Part shown: positions 15,595 to 51,738 of the stretch, in pieces
Numbering within the stretch: the stretch's first letter is position 1
Layout of the letters: each line of letters starts with the position of its first letter
NCBI RefSeq assembly: GCF_021731985.1
Contig: NZ_JAKFWH010000006.1
Location: 1 to 64,000 of the forward strand
DNA length: 64,000 bases
Reading direction: 5' to 3'
From: Nitrosomonas sp.
GTDB taxonomy: Bacteria; Pseudomonadota; Gammaproteobacteria; Burkholderiales; Nitrosomonadaceae
The notes under the pieces: model-generated
Told to the model about the DNA's origin: nothing
Databases searched by the model: none
What the model saw: only the letters and a program-made list of their open reading frames with translations
Position numbers and translations under genes: made by a program

Positions 15595-16344
15595 ATGGCT
15601 ACTCAATCAACAATAGAATGGACGGAGCAAACCTGGAATCCCACTACCGGCTGTACTAAGGTGTCACCGGGTTGCAAAAACTGTTATGCAGAAGTAATGG
15701 CAAGGCGGTTACATGCAATGGGAACGCCTGGCTATGAAAACGAATTCAATCTCACTGTTCATGAAAATCGTCTTAGCCAGCCTTTACTCCGGAAGAAGCC
15801 AACTGTTTATTTTGTGAACAGCATGAGCGATTTATTTCATGAAGGCGTTTCTGATGAATTCTTGGATAAGGTGTTTGAAGTTATCGAAAATACTCCGCAG
15901 CATACCTATCAAATACTAACCAAACGAGCAGAACGGTTGCCGGTATATTTCAACCTGCGAAAATGTCCTGATAACGTATGGCTTGGCGTATCAGTAGAAG
16001 ATAAGAAATATGGAGTGCCACGCATTGATTACTTGAGGCAAGTAAACGCAAAAATTAGATTTCTTTCAGTGGAACCCTTGCTCGAAGATGTGGGGAAAAT
16101 GAATCTAACCGGCATTCACTGGGTGATTGTTGGCGGTGAATCTGGACACAAAGCCAGACCAATGAAGGCTGAATGGGTTATTAATATTCAGCAACAATGT
16201 GAAGAATCGGATGTGGCTTTTTTCTTCAAACAATGGGGTGGTTGGGGTGCGGACGGTGTTAAGCGTGACAAAAAGGCTAACGGGCGCATTTTTCGTGAAC
16301 GCACATGGGATGACTATCCGAAAGCTTTGGGTTCGTCCTTATAG
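15595..16344 (+). CDS. Three-Cys-motif protein, phage Gp37/Gp68 (DUF5131) family
   Basis: 249 aa. The N-terminus IEWTEQTWNPTTGCTKVSPGCKNCYAE carries the C-x6-C-x2-C motif of this family, which resembles a radical-SAM-like cluster site. Further family blocks: YFVNSMSDLFHEGV, YQILTKRAERLP, NVWLGVSVED, FLSVEPLLED and GIHWVIVGGESG. FFFKQWGG near the end is also typical. Activity is not established. Its partner TcmP is encoded convergently and overlaps it by 6 bp. Located in the cargo segment between the two operator regions. Confidence 0.87.
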   Translation: MATQSTIEWTEQTWNPTTGCTKVSPGCKNCYAEVMARRLHAMGTPGYENEFNLTVHENRLSQPLLRKKPTVYFVNSMSDLFHEGVSDEFLDKVFEVIENTPQHTYQILTKRAERLPVYFNLRKCPDNVWLGVSVEDKKYGVPRIDYLRQVNAKIRFLSVEPLLEDVGKMNLTGIHWVIVGGESGHKARPMKAEWVINIQQQCEESDVAFFFKQWGGWGADGVKRDKKANGRIFRERTWDDYPKALGSSL

Positions 16345-17256
16345 TGAATTCAGAATATCTTTTGCAATTTTGGTCGCCAGTCCATGCGCCTTAAGGCTAG
16401 GATTGGATGATGCAAAATACAGGGCGAAGAGTGGAGGGCCACTTGGATTTCTTGAATTTCCGCCCCGGTGCAGAATTTTTGGTTCAGTCACTGCGGGAAA
16501 CAAAGTCTTCAATTGCTTTGATACAAATTTCAGCATCTGAGGGTGATCTATATCACGCACATCGCCATTTCCTCCGCCAAACATATCTGATTGTGGATTC
16601 TGGACATAGAATACCTTGCGCCATTCATCAGTCCCAAGTACGCGCGTTAGTGATGCCTCTTTGTCGGCATCAAGTGCGTCTGCGTTCTTTGTTGCCTGTC
16701 GATACAGTCCGGCATACGGGAATAAGTACCAGACATCAATCGCACCGGTTTTAGCAATAGTTTCCAACGTTGACCATTCAACATGCATTCCAAACGGATC
16801 AAGAAACAGTACGGCACGCTCCCGTCTCCAATGATATTGGGTGCACAAGGTTTTCAATGCCTTATTGGCATCGTCCTGGATAATCTCAATGATCTTTCCA
16901 GGATGCTCTGATCTCAAAGCATTCAATGCCATTAACTTCTTCGAGTGAAGCTCGATGAAACAGAATTTATGAAATGCTGGATTGATGTCCAATGCCCTGC
17001 GTGCAGAGCCATCGATAGTTTTATTCTCACCATCGACTTTGATATCGCACCGTCCCGTACCAGCAAAAGCATCGATATATAGACGGGTAAAACTTTGTTT
17101 GCTGAGAACAGTATTGAACGCAGCCAGATATTTCTCTAACGCCCCTAGCTTGATGAGAGTCCAAGCCCCGCCGAAGGAGTGCTGATCGCGTGAGACATTG
17201 TCTAATTCGTCTTCATCTGGCAACAGCCCATTATCACCTCCGATAGGTTCTACCAT
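16339..17256 (-). CDS. tcmP: Three-Cys-motif partner protein TcmP
   Basis: 305 aa. Family pattern: SFGGAWTLIKLGALEKYLAAF, LYIDAFAGTGRC (a methyltransferase-like GTG loop), FCFIELHSKK and VLFLDPFGMHVEW (D-P-F/Y like motif IV), then VWYLFPYAGLYR. The fold looks like an SAM-dependent methyltransferase. TcmP proteins are defined by occurrence with the Gp37/Gp68 protein, here encoded on the opposite strand with overlapping 3' ends. Joint function unknown. Confidence 0.83.
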   Translation of the reverse strand: MVEPIGGDNGLLPDEDELDNVSRDQHSFGGAWTLIKLGALEKYLAAFNTVLSKQSFTRLYIDAFAGTGRCDIKVDGENKTIDGSARRALDINPAFHKFCFIELHSKKLMALNALRSEHPGKIIEIIQDDANKALKTLCTQYHWRRERAVLFLDPFGMHVEWSTLETIAKTGAIDVWYLFPYAGLYRQATKNADALDADKEASLTRVLGTDEWRKVFYVQNPQSDMFGGGNGDVRDIDHPQMLKFVSKQLKTLFPAVTEPKILHRGGNSRNPSGPPLFALYFASSNPSLKAHGLATKIAKDILNSL

Positions 17257-21306: not shown

Positions 21307-22071
21307 CTACTGTTGTCTATTCCTACGCCGCACCATAAACCCAACTAATCCAAGACCTGCCAGCAGCATCGCGTAGGTGGATGGCTCTGGTACCGGCGAC
21401 ACTGGATCAGGATCTGGAATAAAAACTGGCGGCAGCGTTACATTAATGTTGTCTATCGCTAGGAAATTGGTGGTGTCTTTCGTGATTGTTACGCTTGCTA
21501 GATTGGTGAATCCTGTCAGATCGTGGTGAGTGAAATCATTCCCAATCTGAATATCGCTATTAAGGGCGGTGGCATCAAGTCCCACAGATTGACTGATTGA
21601 GCCGCCGCCTACAAAATTACCAGTAATGGTAGCCTGAGTCTCACCATAACCAGCCTGCCACATAACCAAGTCCAAGCCATTGAGAGAAAACGGTTCATTG
21701 CTGGCAAGATTGAACGTTAATGATGGAGAAAACATAGCGTAATCGGTCCCGTTCCAAGCTGTCAGGAACGTATCTATTGCAGCCCCAGAAAGCCCCGGAT
21801 TGCTGCCCCAATTTTGCATATCAACAAAAATTAATCCATTATCAGCTCCGATAGATGGATTTAAACCTACGCCGCTACTAGCGAATTGGAATCCTCCAAT
21901 AGAAGCTACTGCGCTATTGATAAGCACTGTCGACGCACTATCATGAGAATACTCTCCCGGCATATAGTTGCCAGCCAAGCCATCAAAAGTGATTGTTTCT
22001 GCCGCTGAATTTGATGCTAGCCCTATTGATAAAACACTTGCTATTGATGCTGCTATTAGTTTTTTCTTCAT
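21307..22071 (-). CDS. PEP-CTERM exosortase-sorted surface/exported protein
   Basis: 254 aa. N-terminal signal peptide (KKKLIAASIASVLSIGLASNSAAE), a beta-rich Gly/Asn/Ser body, a proline linker (IPDPDPVSP) and the sorting tail VPEPSTYAMLLAGLGLVGF-VRRRNRQQ: PEP motif, membrane helix and basic end. Exosortase (host-encoded, none seen here) should cleave the tail and release or anchor the protein, often with exopolysaccharide. The body has no enzyme motif. Transcribed opposite to the rightward phage genes, just downstream of the repressor, where lysogenic expression is likely. Confidence 0.88.
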   Translation of the reverse strand: MKKKLIAASIASVLSIGLASNSAAETITFDGLAGNYMPGEYSHDSASTVLINSAVASIGGFQFASSGVGLNPSIGADNGLIFVDMQNWGSNPGLSGAAIDTFLTAWNGTDYAMFSPSLTFNLASNEPFSLNGLDLVMWQAGYGETQATITGNFVGGGSISQSVGLDATALNSDIQIGNDFTHHDLTGFTNLASVTITKDTTNFLAIDNINVTLPPVFIPDPDPVSPVPEPSTYAMLLAGLGLVGFMVRRRNRQQ

Positions 22072-31236: not shown

Positions 31237-32217
31237 ATGGCAGCAAAACCGAAATTAACCCCGGAAGAGTGGGCGAAAGTACGCAGCACATGGGAATCAG
31301 ACCCGCGTGAGGGTTATGCGTGGATTATTGATGAGCTGAGTATCCCGATGACGAGAGCAGCGCTGAGAAAGGTTGCTATACGTGAGGGATGGGTTAAAAA
31401 AGCAGGAAGCAAGCCAGAAGCCCTTATCGGAACTGTTGCAAAAAATGCAAGAGTTGCAAGCAAGGTATCCAGGAATTCCAAGGTACCCGTCAAGGCACTC
31501 GACAACTCACCTAAAGAATCGCCCGTGCACCCCGCCAGCAAAGGGAATAGCAAGAAGGTATCCAAGCCCAAGGTATCCAAGGTATCCCAAACAGCGATGG
31601 TATCCAAGGTATCCAATGATGATGGTTCGGATACCATCAATGACGAGCCGGATACCATCGAGGAAACCATCGAAGAGGCTGATAAGAATCCTGGGGGCAG
31701 ACCTACACTTTATAGGGAAGAGTATAACGATCAAGTACATAGATTATGTGTATTGGGTGTGACTGATGAAGAGATAGCCAAGTATTTTGGGGTATCGAAA
31801 AACACAATAACAAACTGGAAGAATGAGCATCCGGAGTTTTTGGCATCCATGGAAGAAGGGAAGATGGAAGCTGATGCTGATGTGGCTATGTCAACTTACA
31901 AATCAGCGACCGGGAAGCACTATGTCGAGGAAGAAAAGATTGTTGTTGGTGAAGGAGTCAGGAATCTAAGAAGGCAAATCCCACCAGACGTTGCAGCACA
32001 AAGAATGTGGTTATTTAATCGCAGACCCAAAGAATGGAAGAATAAAGTCGAGGTTCAAGAAGATATCAATCTCAATGTATTCCCGCCCAAAGAAGTGCTT
32101 GATGCTGTTTACGCTGAAGCATTGGAGGTTGCCAGAAAGCGTGATGAAATGCTTATCGGCAGGCGCGAGCGGCTTGGAATTGTCATAGATCACGATACTG
32201 GTTTGATTGATGACTAA
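31237..32217 (+). CDS. Terminase small subunit
   Basis: 326 aa. N-terminal region LTPEEWAKVRSTWESDPREGYAWI with a second helix pair, a repetitive Lys/Val/Ser linker (about residues 75-150), then the DNA-recognition helix GVTDEEIAKYFGVSKNTITNWKNEHPEF and a C-terminal part ending before the large subunit. Recognises phage DNA for packaging. Longer than usual because of the linker, which encodes the GGTATCC repeats. Overlaps terL by 8 bp. Confidence 0.75.
   Translation: MAAKPKLTPEEWAKVRSTWESDPREGYAWIIDELSIPMTRAALRKVAIREGWVKKAGSKPEALIGTVAKNARVASKVSRNSKVPVKALDNSPKESPVHPASKGNSKKVSKPKVSKVSQTAMVSKVSNDDGSDTINDEPDTIEETIEEADKNPGGRPTLYREEYNDQVHRLCVLGVTDEEIAKYFGVSKNTITNWKNEHPEFLASMEEGKMEADADVAMSTYKSATGKHYVEEEKIVVGEGVRNLRRQIPPDVAAQRMWLFNRRPKEWKNKVEVQEDINLNVFPPKEVLDAVYAEALEVARKRDEMLIGRRERLGIVIDHDTGLIDD
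31464..31656. repeat. GGTATCC repeat cluster, candidate packaging (pac) site
   Basis: Six direct GGTATCC (31464, 31557, 31572, 31581, 31599, 31608) followed by two inverted copies GGATACC (31629, 31650), all within the terminase small-subunit gene. Known pac sites (P22, SPP1) lie in or beside this gene. Function inferred. Confidence 0.45.
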
Positions 32218-33730: not shown

Positions 33731-33743
33731 TTACAGGAGTGTT

Positions 33744-34082
33744 ATGACTAGAAGAGAAAACCCGGTACCAACCATTAAATTTATTGTTTCAAAGATTCTG
33801 AAGTGCGACAAAAAAGAAGTTTTACTCAGAAAAGAGTTAATTAAGGATCTTGGGGCTGATTCAATGCAAGTGCTGCAGATAATCATCGTAATCGAGCGTG
33901 AATTCAGGGTGGAGTTTGATGATGAGCGTCTTGGCGATAGTCTCAATGGCGGTGGGATAACGGTTAGGAAATTGATTGATGAGGTGAAGCGTAGGGTGCA
34001 TGCCTCAGATGCGTTTAAAAGAACCGTGAGTCACGCGGCAAGAGCGCCGATAATCGATGAAAATAGAGCAATAATTGATTAA
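33744..34082 (+). CDS. Acyl carrier protein-like protein encoded by the phage
   Basis: 112 aa from ATG 33744 (MTRRENPVPTIKF), preceded by CAGGAG. Residues 15-80 follow the ACP fold: FIVSKILKCDKKEVLLRKELIKDLGADSMQVLQIIIVIEREFRVEFDDE, with Ser in DSM where the phosphopantetheine arm is attached. The C-terminal 30 residues (HASDAFKRTVSHAARAP) are extra. It lies between terminase and dUTPase. Whether it is modified or used in fatty-acid or virion chemistry is unknown. Confidence 0.75.
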   Translation: MTRRENPVPTIKFIVSKILKCDKKEVLLRKELIKDLGADSMQVLQIIIVIEREFRVEFDDERLGDSLNGGGITVRKLIDEVKRRVHASDAFKRTVSHAARAPIIDENRAIID

Positions 34083-34097
34083 AAAGGAGATTGAGTC

Positions 34098-34343
34098 ATG
34101 AGATATATCATTGAATTGATTAAGACTGTTAGCAAGATCATTGAGAAATACGATACCAAGGATGATGTAACAGTTAGAGTAACCGCAAGGAGAAAGATGT
34201 TGATAGGCAATGGATGCTATGAATATAGAGCATTACCAATGGCGGTTGAAATCGAGAACGATATTAAGCCAATTGATAAAGATCATCCAATTTGGATGGC
34301 GGCTTATAGAGATTTGAAAAAATCAATGGGAGTTCAACAATGA
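34098..34343 (+). CDS. Hypothetical phage protein
   Basis: 81 aa, AAAGGAG before ATG 34098. Helix then basic strands ([20 protein letters not shown]). Stop overlaps the dut start (ATGA). No family recognised. Confidence 0.55.
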
Positions 34344-34807
34344 ATAAATTTGAACTAAAAATATTGAGTAACCTGATTGCAGCCGAAAATTTGAAGCCAA
34401 AGACACCTGGTAGTGCCGGTATCGATCTGATGGCGGTGACATTTCCTTCTATTTCATCTAACAATGACGGTTTTGTTGATATCAATCCTGGTGAGGTGAT
34501 ATTGATTGGTACCGGAATCGCAATTCATCTCGCAAACCCAGGATACGCCGGTATGATATTGCCGCGCTCTGGATTGGGGCACAAAGGGCTTGTGCTTGGT
34601 AACCTGGTGGGCTTGATTGATTCGGATTATCAAGGGGAATTAAAGGTTTCTGCCTGGAATAGAACGAATGAAGCTATTAAAATTAATCGAATGGACAGAA
34701 TCGCACAGCTTGTCATCGTGCCGGTGATGGTTCCTGAATTCACTATTGTGGATAGCTTTGGTGAGTCTGCGAGGGGTGCTGGGGGATTTGGGTCAACGGG
34801 TTTGTGA
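34340..34807 (+). CDS. dut: dUTPase (deoxyuridine triphosphatase)
   Basis: 155 aa, complete trimeric dUTPase converting dUTP to dUMP and PPi. All five motifs are present: [41 protein letters not shown] and [10 protein letters not shown]. The insertion SNNDGFVD after motif I is unusual but short. Keeps uracil out of phage DNA and supplies dUMP. Confidence 0.93.
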
Positions 34808-38362: not shown

Positions 38363-39523
38363 TTACGCCGCTGATACTTTCCTGCGATGTGCCATAAAAC
38401 CCATTAACCCTAAGCCAGCCAAAAGCATAGCGTAGGTTTGTGGTTCTGGCACTGGAAATGGAGAAAGAAGAAATGCTTCGGTATGCCCATGAAATTTGCC
38501 ATACCCAACAATTTGGCCATTATTATTGATTGCCTGCGCTACAACATTGGTCCATCCTGCGCCAATAACGGCAGGTAATAGTGAAAGATCAGTCATTTCA
38601 TTATTGCTAAATAAGAAAGAGTTCCCGCCATCAGTGGTAGATAAATATCCGACTACTTGTCCCGAATCGTTGATATCTGTGGCGTAAGAGAATGCACCGC
38701 CCTGACCATCCAGCAAGTCGGTCGTTCCAACCCCATTTGGGCCTGTGATGAATGCATGATATACAGTATCTCCAGCAAGGTAAGACCCGCCCACCACTTG
38801 CCCTGCATTATTGATGCTATTGGCGTTGCTGTAACTTCCGCCAAGGTTCTCTAAGACAGTTATTCCTGTCCCGTTAGGTCCTGTGATAAAAGGACGTGTT
38901 AAATTTTCCGTGCCATTCATTAAATACCCTGTTACTTGACCGGAATCATTAATTCCTGAGGCGCTAGAATAGTTCCATTGGTCAAACCTAGTAAATCCAT
39001 TCAGGCCAATACCATTAGTGCCAGTAATAAAGGCCGTTATATAAGGTTCCCCGCCATCAGTACCTGCAACTTGTCCAGAATTATTGATAGCAAAAGCCTC
39101 ACTATATTCAAAGTCATTATTTTCACCAGGATGCACACTTAAAAATCCTAAATCGTTCATTCCACCACCATTAGGGCCCGTTATAAAAGCGTGAGTCCTG
39201 AAGTAGCCTAAGCTAGAAGATCCTACTACTTGTCCAGAATCGTTGATGCCGGTAGCTATACTGTTTTTTCCACCCAACGTGCCCAGGTCCGACATGCCAG
39301 CGCCATTAGGCCCGGTTATGAAGGCACGGTAGTTACCTATAGTGCCGTAAGACCCTACTACCTGCCCAGAATTATTTATATCATAGGCCTCACTTATTGT
39401 TCCTCCCAGAGTTCCCAAGGCACGAATTGACCAATCTGCAAGAGCCATCGTGGGTATTGAAGCTGCGGCAATCCCAGCGAGAAAGACTGCAGTGCGTTTA
39501 ATTTTTGAAAGTTTATTGTTCAT
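38363..39523 (-). CDS. PEP-CTERM protein with HAF repeats
   Basis: 386 aa from ATG 39523 (MNNKLSKIKRTAVFLAGIAAASIPTMALA), with GGAAAAT upstream; the track start 39592 adds a leader without signal features. After the signal peptide come about seven beta repeats built on INNSGQVVG / INDSGQVVG and AFITGPNG-GM-DLGTLGG (HAF repeats). The tail VPEPQTYAMLLAGLGLMGFMAHRRKVSAA is a PEP-CTERM exosortase signal. Extracellular role unknown. Leftward, against the phage genes, as for the other PEP-CTERM cargo. Confidence 0.88.
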   Translation of the reverse strand: MNNKLSKIKRTAVFLAGIAAASIPTMALADWSIRALGTLGGTISEAYDINNSGQVVGSYGTIGNYRAFITGPNGAGMSDLGTLGGKNSIATGINDSGQVVGSSSLGYFRTHAFITGPNGGGMNDLGFLSVHPGENNDFEYSEAFAINNSGQVAGTDGGEPYITAFITGTNGIGLNGFTRFDQWNYSSASGINDSGQVTGYLMNGTENLTRPFITGPNGTGITVLENLGGSYSNANSINNAGQVVGGSYLAGDTVYHAFITGPNGVGTTDLLDGQGGAFSYATDINDSGQVVGYLSTTDGGNSFLFSNNEMTDLSLLPAVIGAGWTNVVAQAINNNGQIVGYGKFHGHTEAFLLSPFPVPEPQTYAMLLAGLGLMGFMAHRRKVSAA

Positions 39524-39636
39524 TATTTTCCTTTTTTGAAATCTCATTTTGCTCAGGCTTCTCCTTGGCACAGCAAAAGTATTGTTCAGCATTATTAAAC
39601 TCTAAATACTGAGGGATCTGAATACATCATAAAAAA

Positions 39637-50910: not shown

Positions 50911-51738
50911 TTACAGGGCAGCTTCCTTTCTGCGCCCCGCGATAAATCCAATTAAACAAAGACCAACCAATAACATGGCGTAGGTTCCGGGTTCTGGAAC
51001 AGCACCCATGATGTACTCGTAACCGAAAGTAACTGAATGGTGACTAGGAATGGTGCCAAGATTATAAACTAAGCCAATTGATGAGTCAGAATTTACATAA
51101 TCACCAAGCGCACAGCAAGTAAAAGGAAAGGGAACAGGATCAATGTAAGACATTATGCCAAATGCTGATGGAGCAGTAGTGTTAGCTAACGTCACCGACC
51201 AACCATCCAAGCTCGTAGCCGATACAGAAGCGCCGTTTCCTGTTCCACTGATTATATTATGTGTGTCAGGGCCAAGACCAACCGGCAAACCTTGGTTTGG
51301 GTTAAATCCAACACGCCATTGTGAATCTATAGCTTCAAATCCGGTATTATTCGTAAGCTGAATCTGAACAGCAACATGACCATGCACTGGAATAGATACC
51401 GTTTCTACAAATTTCCAACCATCGGAATCTGCGCTGGTTACCATCACGATAATTGAATCGGTGGGGTCATTATTTTTATGAAGCGAAAAAACCATATTAT
51501 TCAGTATACTTGATGTGCCGCCATTGAAAGACCAACTGCCGTGATCAAAGAACTCTCTTCCCATAAAACTTAGACCAAGGGAGGTAGCGCTGGGGAAATG
51601 ATCGGGATCAGCGACCGTGGCAACGGTGCCCAAGTCGTCGGTAATAACAATAGGTGCGGCATGTGCTGTAACAAAGGTACCACATAGAGCTATCACCGCT
51701 ATTTTCGCCAAGCAATTTCGTTTCAATTCAAATTCCAT
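50911..51738 (-). CDS. PEP-CTERM exported protein, third cargo copy
   Basis: 275 aa. Signal peptide (LAKIAVIALCGTFVTAHA), beta-rich body (SFNGGTSSILNNMVFSLHKN, NNTGFEAIDSQWRVGFNPN), and tail VPEPGTYAMLLVGLCLIGFIAGRRKEAAL with PEP motif, membrane helix and Arg cluster. It lies between two capsid-module genes with its own terminator, leftward. The body is unlike the other PEP-CTERM proteins here. Confidence 0.87.
   Translation of the reverse strand: MEFELKRNCLAKIAVIALCGTFVTAHAAPIVITDDLGTVATVADPDHFPSATSLGLSFMGREFFDHGSWSFNGGTSSILNNMVFSLHKNNDPTDSIIVMVTSADSDGWKFVETVSIPVHGHVAVQIQLTNNTGFEAIDSQWRVGFNPNQGLPVGLGPDTHNIISGTGNGASVSATSLDGWSVTLANTTAPSAFGIMSYIDPVPFPFTCCALGDYVNSDSSIGLVYNLGTIPSHHSVTFGYEYIMGAVPEPGTYAMLLVGLCLIGFIAGRRKEAAL

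Follow-up and report, generated by a model that had tools for sequence, protein, structure and literature searches.

An acyl carrier protein with an altered recognition helix in the terminase-dUTPase interval of a P1-like Nitrosomonas prophage

Our results revealed that a large temperate phage integrated in Nitrosomonas sp. encodes its own acyl carrier protein (ACP). Judged from its sequence, the 112-aa product is an ACP with a predicted modifiable serine, and its recognition helix departs from that of the bacterial carrier AcpP. We favor, with a probability of about 0.5, the reading that it is a host-modified, phage-dedicated acyl carrier working beside AcpP rather than replacing it, and it probably has a phage job of its own. 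What is novel is the altered recognition helix and the fixed genomic slot, not the mere presence of an ACP in a phage; phage ACPs have been listed for years as auxiliary metabolic genes. The lineage offers a small, clean test case, in which the slot is fixed, the cofactor serine is intact, and the helix is changed at the positions used by AcpP partners.

The window (the whole 64,000-nucleotide stretch analyzed herein) holds much of the element, which extends over about 90 kb, from an integrase gene (3186) to about 93,300 on the contig or beyond. The prophage carries a terminase, a portal (PHROG 1497), a PmgG-like head protein, a contractile sheath, and a baseplate; its structural genes occupy 41.7-58 kb. 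It also encodes a DarB-like methylase-helicase fusion of 2136 aa (L032:11267-17677; PHROG 11801, PHROG 10089). Because of the PmgG-like and DarB-like genes, whose names we take to be those of P1, we call the element a large P1-like temperate phage. The gene order at the locus is TerS-TerL-ACP-orf81-dUTPase (Table 1). The ACP gene starts 13 nt after the TerL stop, and, since orf81 and the start of the dUTPase gene share 4 nt, the ACP to dUTPase genes are read as one operon. The placement of the ACP between terminase and dUTPase in a preliminary description holds on its upstream side, while on the downstream side the 81-aa ORF precedes the dUTPase. Promoters predicted in a scan of the locus were at shuffle level. 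The host has its own AcpP (G000:C31:14137) and its own dUTPase (the second copy), both on other contigs, and encodes a stand-alone AcpS (PF01648, C2) plus a second phosphopantetheinyl transferase domain. Elsewhere in the prophage, a PEP-CTERM sorting signal (VPEP...GLMGFMAHRRK type) ends three genes, all on the minus strand (21307-22071, 38363-39592, and 50911-51738), an odd cargo for a phage that apparently depends on a host exosortase. Further, a DUF5131 gene (15595-16344, plus strand) is convergent with a 305-aa ORF without known family (16339-17256, minus strand), and a DUF5131-like gene lies again beside a 423-aa ORF near the dUTPase of a related prophage, G020 (L029:10366-12412).

Table 1. 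Coordinates of the ACP locus in the window and of the Kuttervirus records used for comparison
Feature	Position	Strand	Evidence or remark
Terminase small subunit (TerS)	31237..32217	+	PHROG 309, E 2.7e-44
Terminase large subunit (TerL), 507 aa	32207..33730	+	PHROG 2, E 2.6e-21
Ribosome binding site (AGGAG), 4 nt ahead of the ATG start	33735..33739	+	read from sequence
Acyl carrier protein (ACP), 112 aa	33744..34082	+	PF00550 above cut-off, PHROG 5934, ACP fold in AlphaFold model
Ser40 codon TCA, predicted 4'-phosphopantetheine site, motif DSM	33861..33863	+	gapless alignment with E. coli AcpP Ser36
C-terminal extension, about 28 residues (85-112)	33996..34079	+	pLDDT < 50 from residue 96
orf81, 81-aa ORF, no assigned function	34098..34343	+	own ribosome binding site; in L006/L007, absent from G008 and G020
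Prophage dUTPase	34340..34807	+	PF00692, E 2.1e-31
Kuttervirus records without the serine	L043:3345-3656; L133, L134, L135, L136		

The product scored 30.5 bits (E 4.4e-7) with Pfam PF00550 (PP-binding), whose cut-off is 20.8, and it matched two PHROG families named acyl carrier protein, 5934 (E 3.2e-7) and 4154 (E 9.6e-5). The NCBIfam ACP models scored it under their cut-offs; specifically, TIGR00517, the equivalog for the AcpP of fatty-acid synthase, gave 37.6 bits where 70.45 are needed. It was the sole ACP-like ORF among the 316 window ORFs of at least 50 codons (ACP HMM, E 2e-27, a value inflated by the inclusion of the prophage ACP itself in the alignment). The core, at about residues 9-84, aligns without gaps with E. 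coli AcpP. The complete core with DSM at the phosphopantetheine serine, as first described, is borne out by the Pfam match and by the correspondence of Ser40 with Ser36 of E. coli AcpP, and the C-terminal extension, first put at 30 residues, comes to about 28. An AlphaFold model built from 17 sequences reached a pLDDT of about 70-89 in the core, with the tail predicted to be disordered after about residue 96-98; nearly all of its best 50 Foldseek matches in the PDB were ACPs (target TM mostly 0.77-0.88), and the model thus places the protein in the helical-bundle ACP fold. Within the extension, a short K-x-[TI]-x-S-like stretch is common to four copies.

Two IMG/VR contigs (L006 and L007, identical to each other in the ACP gene) carry a copy 63% identical to that of the window, and two prophages among 84 other Nitrosomonas genomes (G008 and G020) carry copies 47-51% identical; in all four, the ACP directly follows TerL and a dUTPase lies downstream. 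A more diverged fifth prophage, G104, has an 85-aa ACP (L102:6605-6862) in the same interval, and it was encountered a second time as IMG/VR contig L105. Sister prophages G053, G118, and G032, with TerL 80-87% identical, hold other cargo downstream of TerL; no such ACP was found in them, and their only dUTPase was at the level of the host gene. The ACP and the prophage dUTPase therefore come and go together, both being present in five of five cases (with the dUTPase truncated in G020) and neither in three of three. Further, the TerL genes are of two types, about 40% identical, the ACP accompanies both, and the TerL...dUTPase slot is kept despite this swap. Outside the lineage, DNA and protein searches with the prophage ACP found it in no cultured phage (tblastn against 50,697 phage records, E 0.01-0.05), scans of genome contigs returned only the already known N. 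ureae locus (that of G008) and distant ACPs, and an order-wide search of 399 genomes yielded its own copy and, apart from that, matches at AcpP level only (best 1e-16).

The phosphopantetheine serine and its D-S-[ML] motif are kept in all five phage copies, as are the aspartate-serine pair and an III run in helix II; loss of the serine in related phages, proposed at the outset as the observation that would count against a carrier, is not seen within this lineage. Pairwise dN/dS (Nei-Gojobori, on small alignments) was 0.19-0.35 in the core and 0.48-0.81 in the tail, and on these ratios the ACP core is under purifying selection. A phylogeny against host AcpP, suggested earlier as a check, joined the five phage copies in one clade (support 96/88) apart from host AcpP, on 70-80 columns that leave the deeper branching unsettled and with a bootstrap not fully converged. 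A recent capture of host AcpP is ruled out by this separate clade. The DNA identity between the window ACP and that of L006 falls from 84-93% to 36-58% after about codon 60, a C-terminal divergence that looks like recombination when the two sequences are compared; we also considered frameshift or decay as its source, and no frameshift is evident.

The prophage ACP departs from AcpP in charge. The whole-protein pI is 9.2, versus 4.05 for the host AcpP, so that the strong acidity of AcpP (pI about 4, acidic helix II) is absent from the prophage ACP. The core has a net charge of 0 in the window copy and -3, -3, and -5 in its three closest relatives, while the other 34 ACPs in the comparison lie between -6 and -19 (-15 in E. 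coli AcpP); the four closest copies (window, L006, G008, and G020) are thus the least acidic of 38. The G104 ACP, outside this table, has a full-length net charge of -4 and a pI of 4.8. In E. coli numbering, D38 is replaced by Q, G, or K, E41 is Q in two of the four close copies (the window copy, which has Q at both positions, and L006), E48 is R in all four, and L42-V43-M44 is III in five of five. We take D38, E41, and E48 to be AcpS contacts of E. coli AcpP, and modification of the prophage ACP by AcpS is, given their replacement, not assured. Both the low acidity and the altered helix speak against the protein being just a second copy of AcpP. In AcpP, SpoT and fatty-acid enzymes recognize helix II, and an M44I change weakens helix II contacts and leaves the ACP functional (PMC3340395); Ile is fixed at that position in the phage copies.

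Given the fold, the serine, the slot, the core constraint, the separate lineage, and the less negative helix II, we favor a phage-dedicated carrier. Under this model, the P1-like temperate phage would supply its own ACP from the packaging/dUTPase operon, Ser40 would receive 4'-phosphopantetheine through the host holo-ACP synthase AcpS, host enzymes would load an acyl chain, and the loaded carrier may then serve a phage-dedicated step in the lytic program, its timing and partner being conjectural, with AcpP working alongside. Both the phosphopantetheinylation of Ser40 and the acylation are steps that we infer from sequence. The main rival, tenable if tentative, is that the protein acts as an ACP-fold adaptor or decoy that binds a host partner of AcpP (SpoT, IscS, AcpS, or a fatty-acid enzyme) and alters its activity. 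Among the partners of E. coli ACP are SpoT, IscS, and MukB, and interactions of this sort are uncoupled by mutations in helix II (PMC3340395); in the phage copies, helix II has an altered charge pattern that is constant (R for E48 in 4/4 close copies, III for LVM in 5/5), and the operon lacks an enzyme partner. Further, the "acyl carrier proteins" of Kuttervirus have Asp or Glu in place of Ser (DDLD or DELD, not DSL) in all five records checked and, as read from these motifs, cannot be ordinary carriers; a phage can therefore keep the ACP fold without the cofactor. However, the serine is invariant in the Nitrosomonas phage lineage, where a pure adaptor would not need it, and with its lower negative charge the protein would be expected to bind the usual basic patches less tightly, not more so. 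The Kuttervirus proteins offer a natural comparison of the fold used with and without a carrier function.

The usual published reading of phage ACPs, as auxiliary metabolic genes (PMC5463345, PMC8224337, PMC11705849, PMC10152775, PMC7760394; function called unclear in one of these), would have the protein supplement AcpP and boost bulk host fatty-acid or phospholipid synthesis; the roseobacter prophages with fabG-acpP-fabF are one published example of this reading (PMC8224337). We consider this improbable here. The ACP neighbors are TerL, orf81, and dUTPase rather than a fab operon, and no phage acyltransferase or fatty-acid enzyme gene was found beside the ACP in the prophage neighborhood; a single GNAT gene (40807) occurs in the prophage and was missing from those parts of its relatives that were examined. 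The protein is also the least acidic of the 38 ACPs compared, and E41, which a title cited in PMC6509188 reports as essential for V. harveyi ACP with fatty-acid synthase, is Gln here and in L006. Diversion of fatty-acid flux, raised at the start, is possible but conjectural: no fatty-acid gene was found next to the ACP, and its recognition helix differs from that of AcpP at the very site used by fatty-acid enzymes. The accompanying view that phage ACPs are rarely reported did not hold up, since host AcpP has matches in 214 of 50,697 phage records, a count that includes some host contamination, though PMC7760394 does describe them as rarely reported. A search of the open-access literature found no experiment on, or tested function of, a phage ACP. 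Separately, an Acinetobacter MD-2021a "phage" ACP record contains a host-like rpmF-fabD-fabG-acpP operon, and the INPHARED records with host-looking ACP matches are CAKLQH020000007 (in which the operon was read), CAKLQF020000011, OR846852, and OR846814; Listeria "phage" ACP records are probably host contamination as well.

It also seems unlikely that the gene is a passenger, carried with the dUTPase as cargo of a terminase-lysin recombination hot spot and of no selected use now. The interval downstream of TerL does hold other cargo in the three sister prophages, and truncation has reached the dUTPase in G020 and TerL in G008, but the ACP frame and serine are intact in five of five copies, the core dN/dS is about 0.2-0.35, and even the diverged G104 copy keeps the slot. 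Least credible is the structural acidic helix bundle floated in the preliminary description, taken here as a component of the virion: mass spectrometry detected an ACP in Erwinia jumbo phages (PMC7760394), but the pI of 9.2 and the core net charge of 0 contradict it, and the gene lies with terminase and dUTPase, apart from the structural genes.

Beyond Nitrosomonas, 12 uncultivated T4-like IMG/VR contigs (L048-L059) encode a 71-aa ACP between the head-closure protein Hc2 (gp14) and gp15, upstream of TerS/TerL (TerL was seen in 11 of the 12) and, in many contigs, in direct stop/start contact with its neighbors; no close match to it was found in cultured phages. One might generalize, in what we regard as a doubtful extension of the phage-dedicated carrier, that some tailed phages keep a carrier in a late packaging/neck operon, where acyl carriage or the ACP fold itself would serve either virion assembly or the end of infection, with the P1-like Nitrosomonas (TerL-ACP-dUTPase) and marine T4-like (gp14-ACP-gp15-TerS-TerL) arrangements arising independently and the altered helix II of the P1-like case marking a switch from host fatty-acid enzymes to a phage partner. 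In two unrelated phages, an ACP gene adjoins a lysis gene, namely an endolysin gene in G104 (L102:6605-7410) and an Rz-like spanin gene in GAP32 (L042:3483-4190).

Set against the closest known systems, the prophage ACP shares with bacterial AcpP the fold, the DLGADS motif, and the phosphopantetheine serine, but it is only about 35% identical to the host copy, has a net charge of +2.7 versus -15.5, is changed at helix II positions D38, E41, and E48, bears the tail of about 28 residues, and lies outside a fab operon. Like the members of PHROG 5934 and PHROG 4154 (moron/auxiliary metabolic class), it is an orphan phage ACP, from which its fixed TerL/dUTPase slot and reduced acidity set it apart. 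The G104 ACP belongs to the same clade, occupies the same interval, and keeps the serine, yet is tail-less, has a DSL motif and an acidic pI, and is followed by an endolysin gene. Finally, the ACP of the T4-like contigs is likewise an orphan inside a packaging operon with its serine intact, but it is acidic, 71 aa long, and placed between gp14 and the tail sheath stabilizer gp15 in unrelated marine phages.
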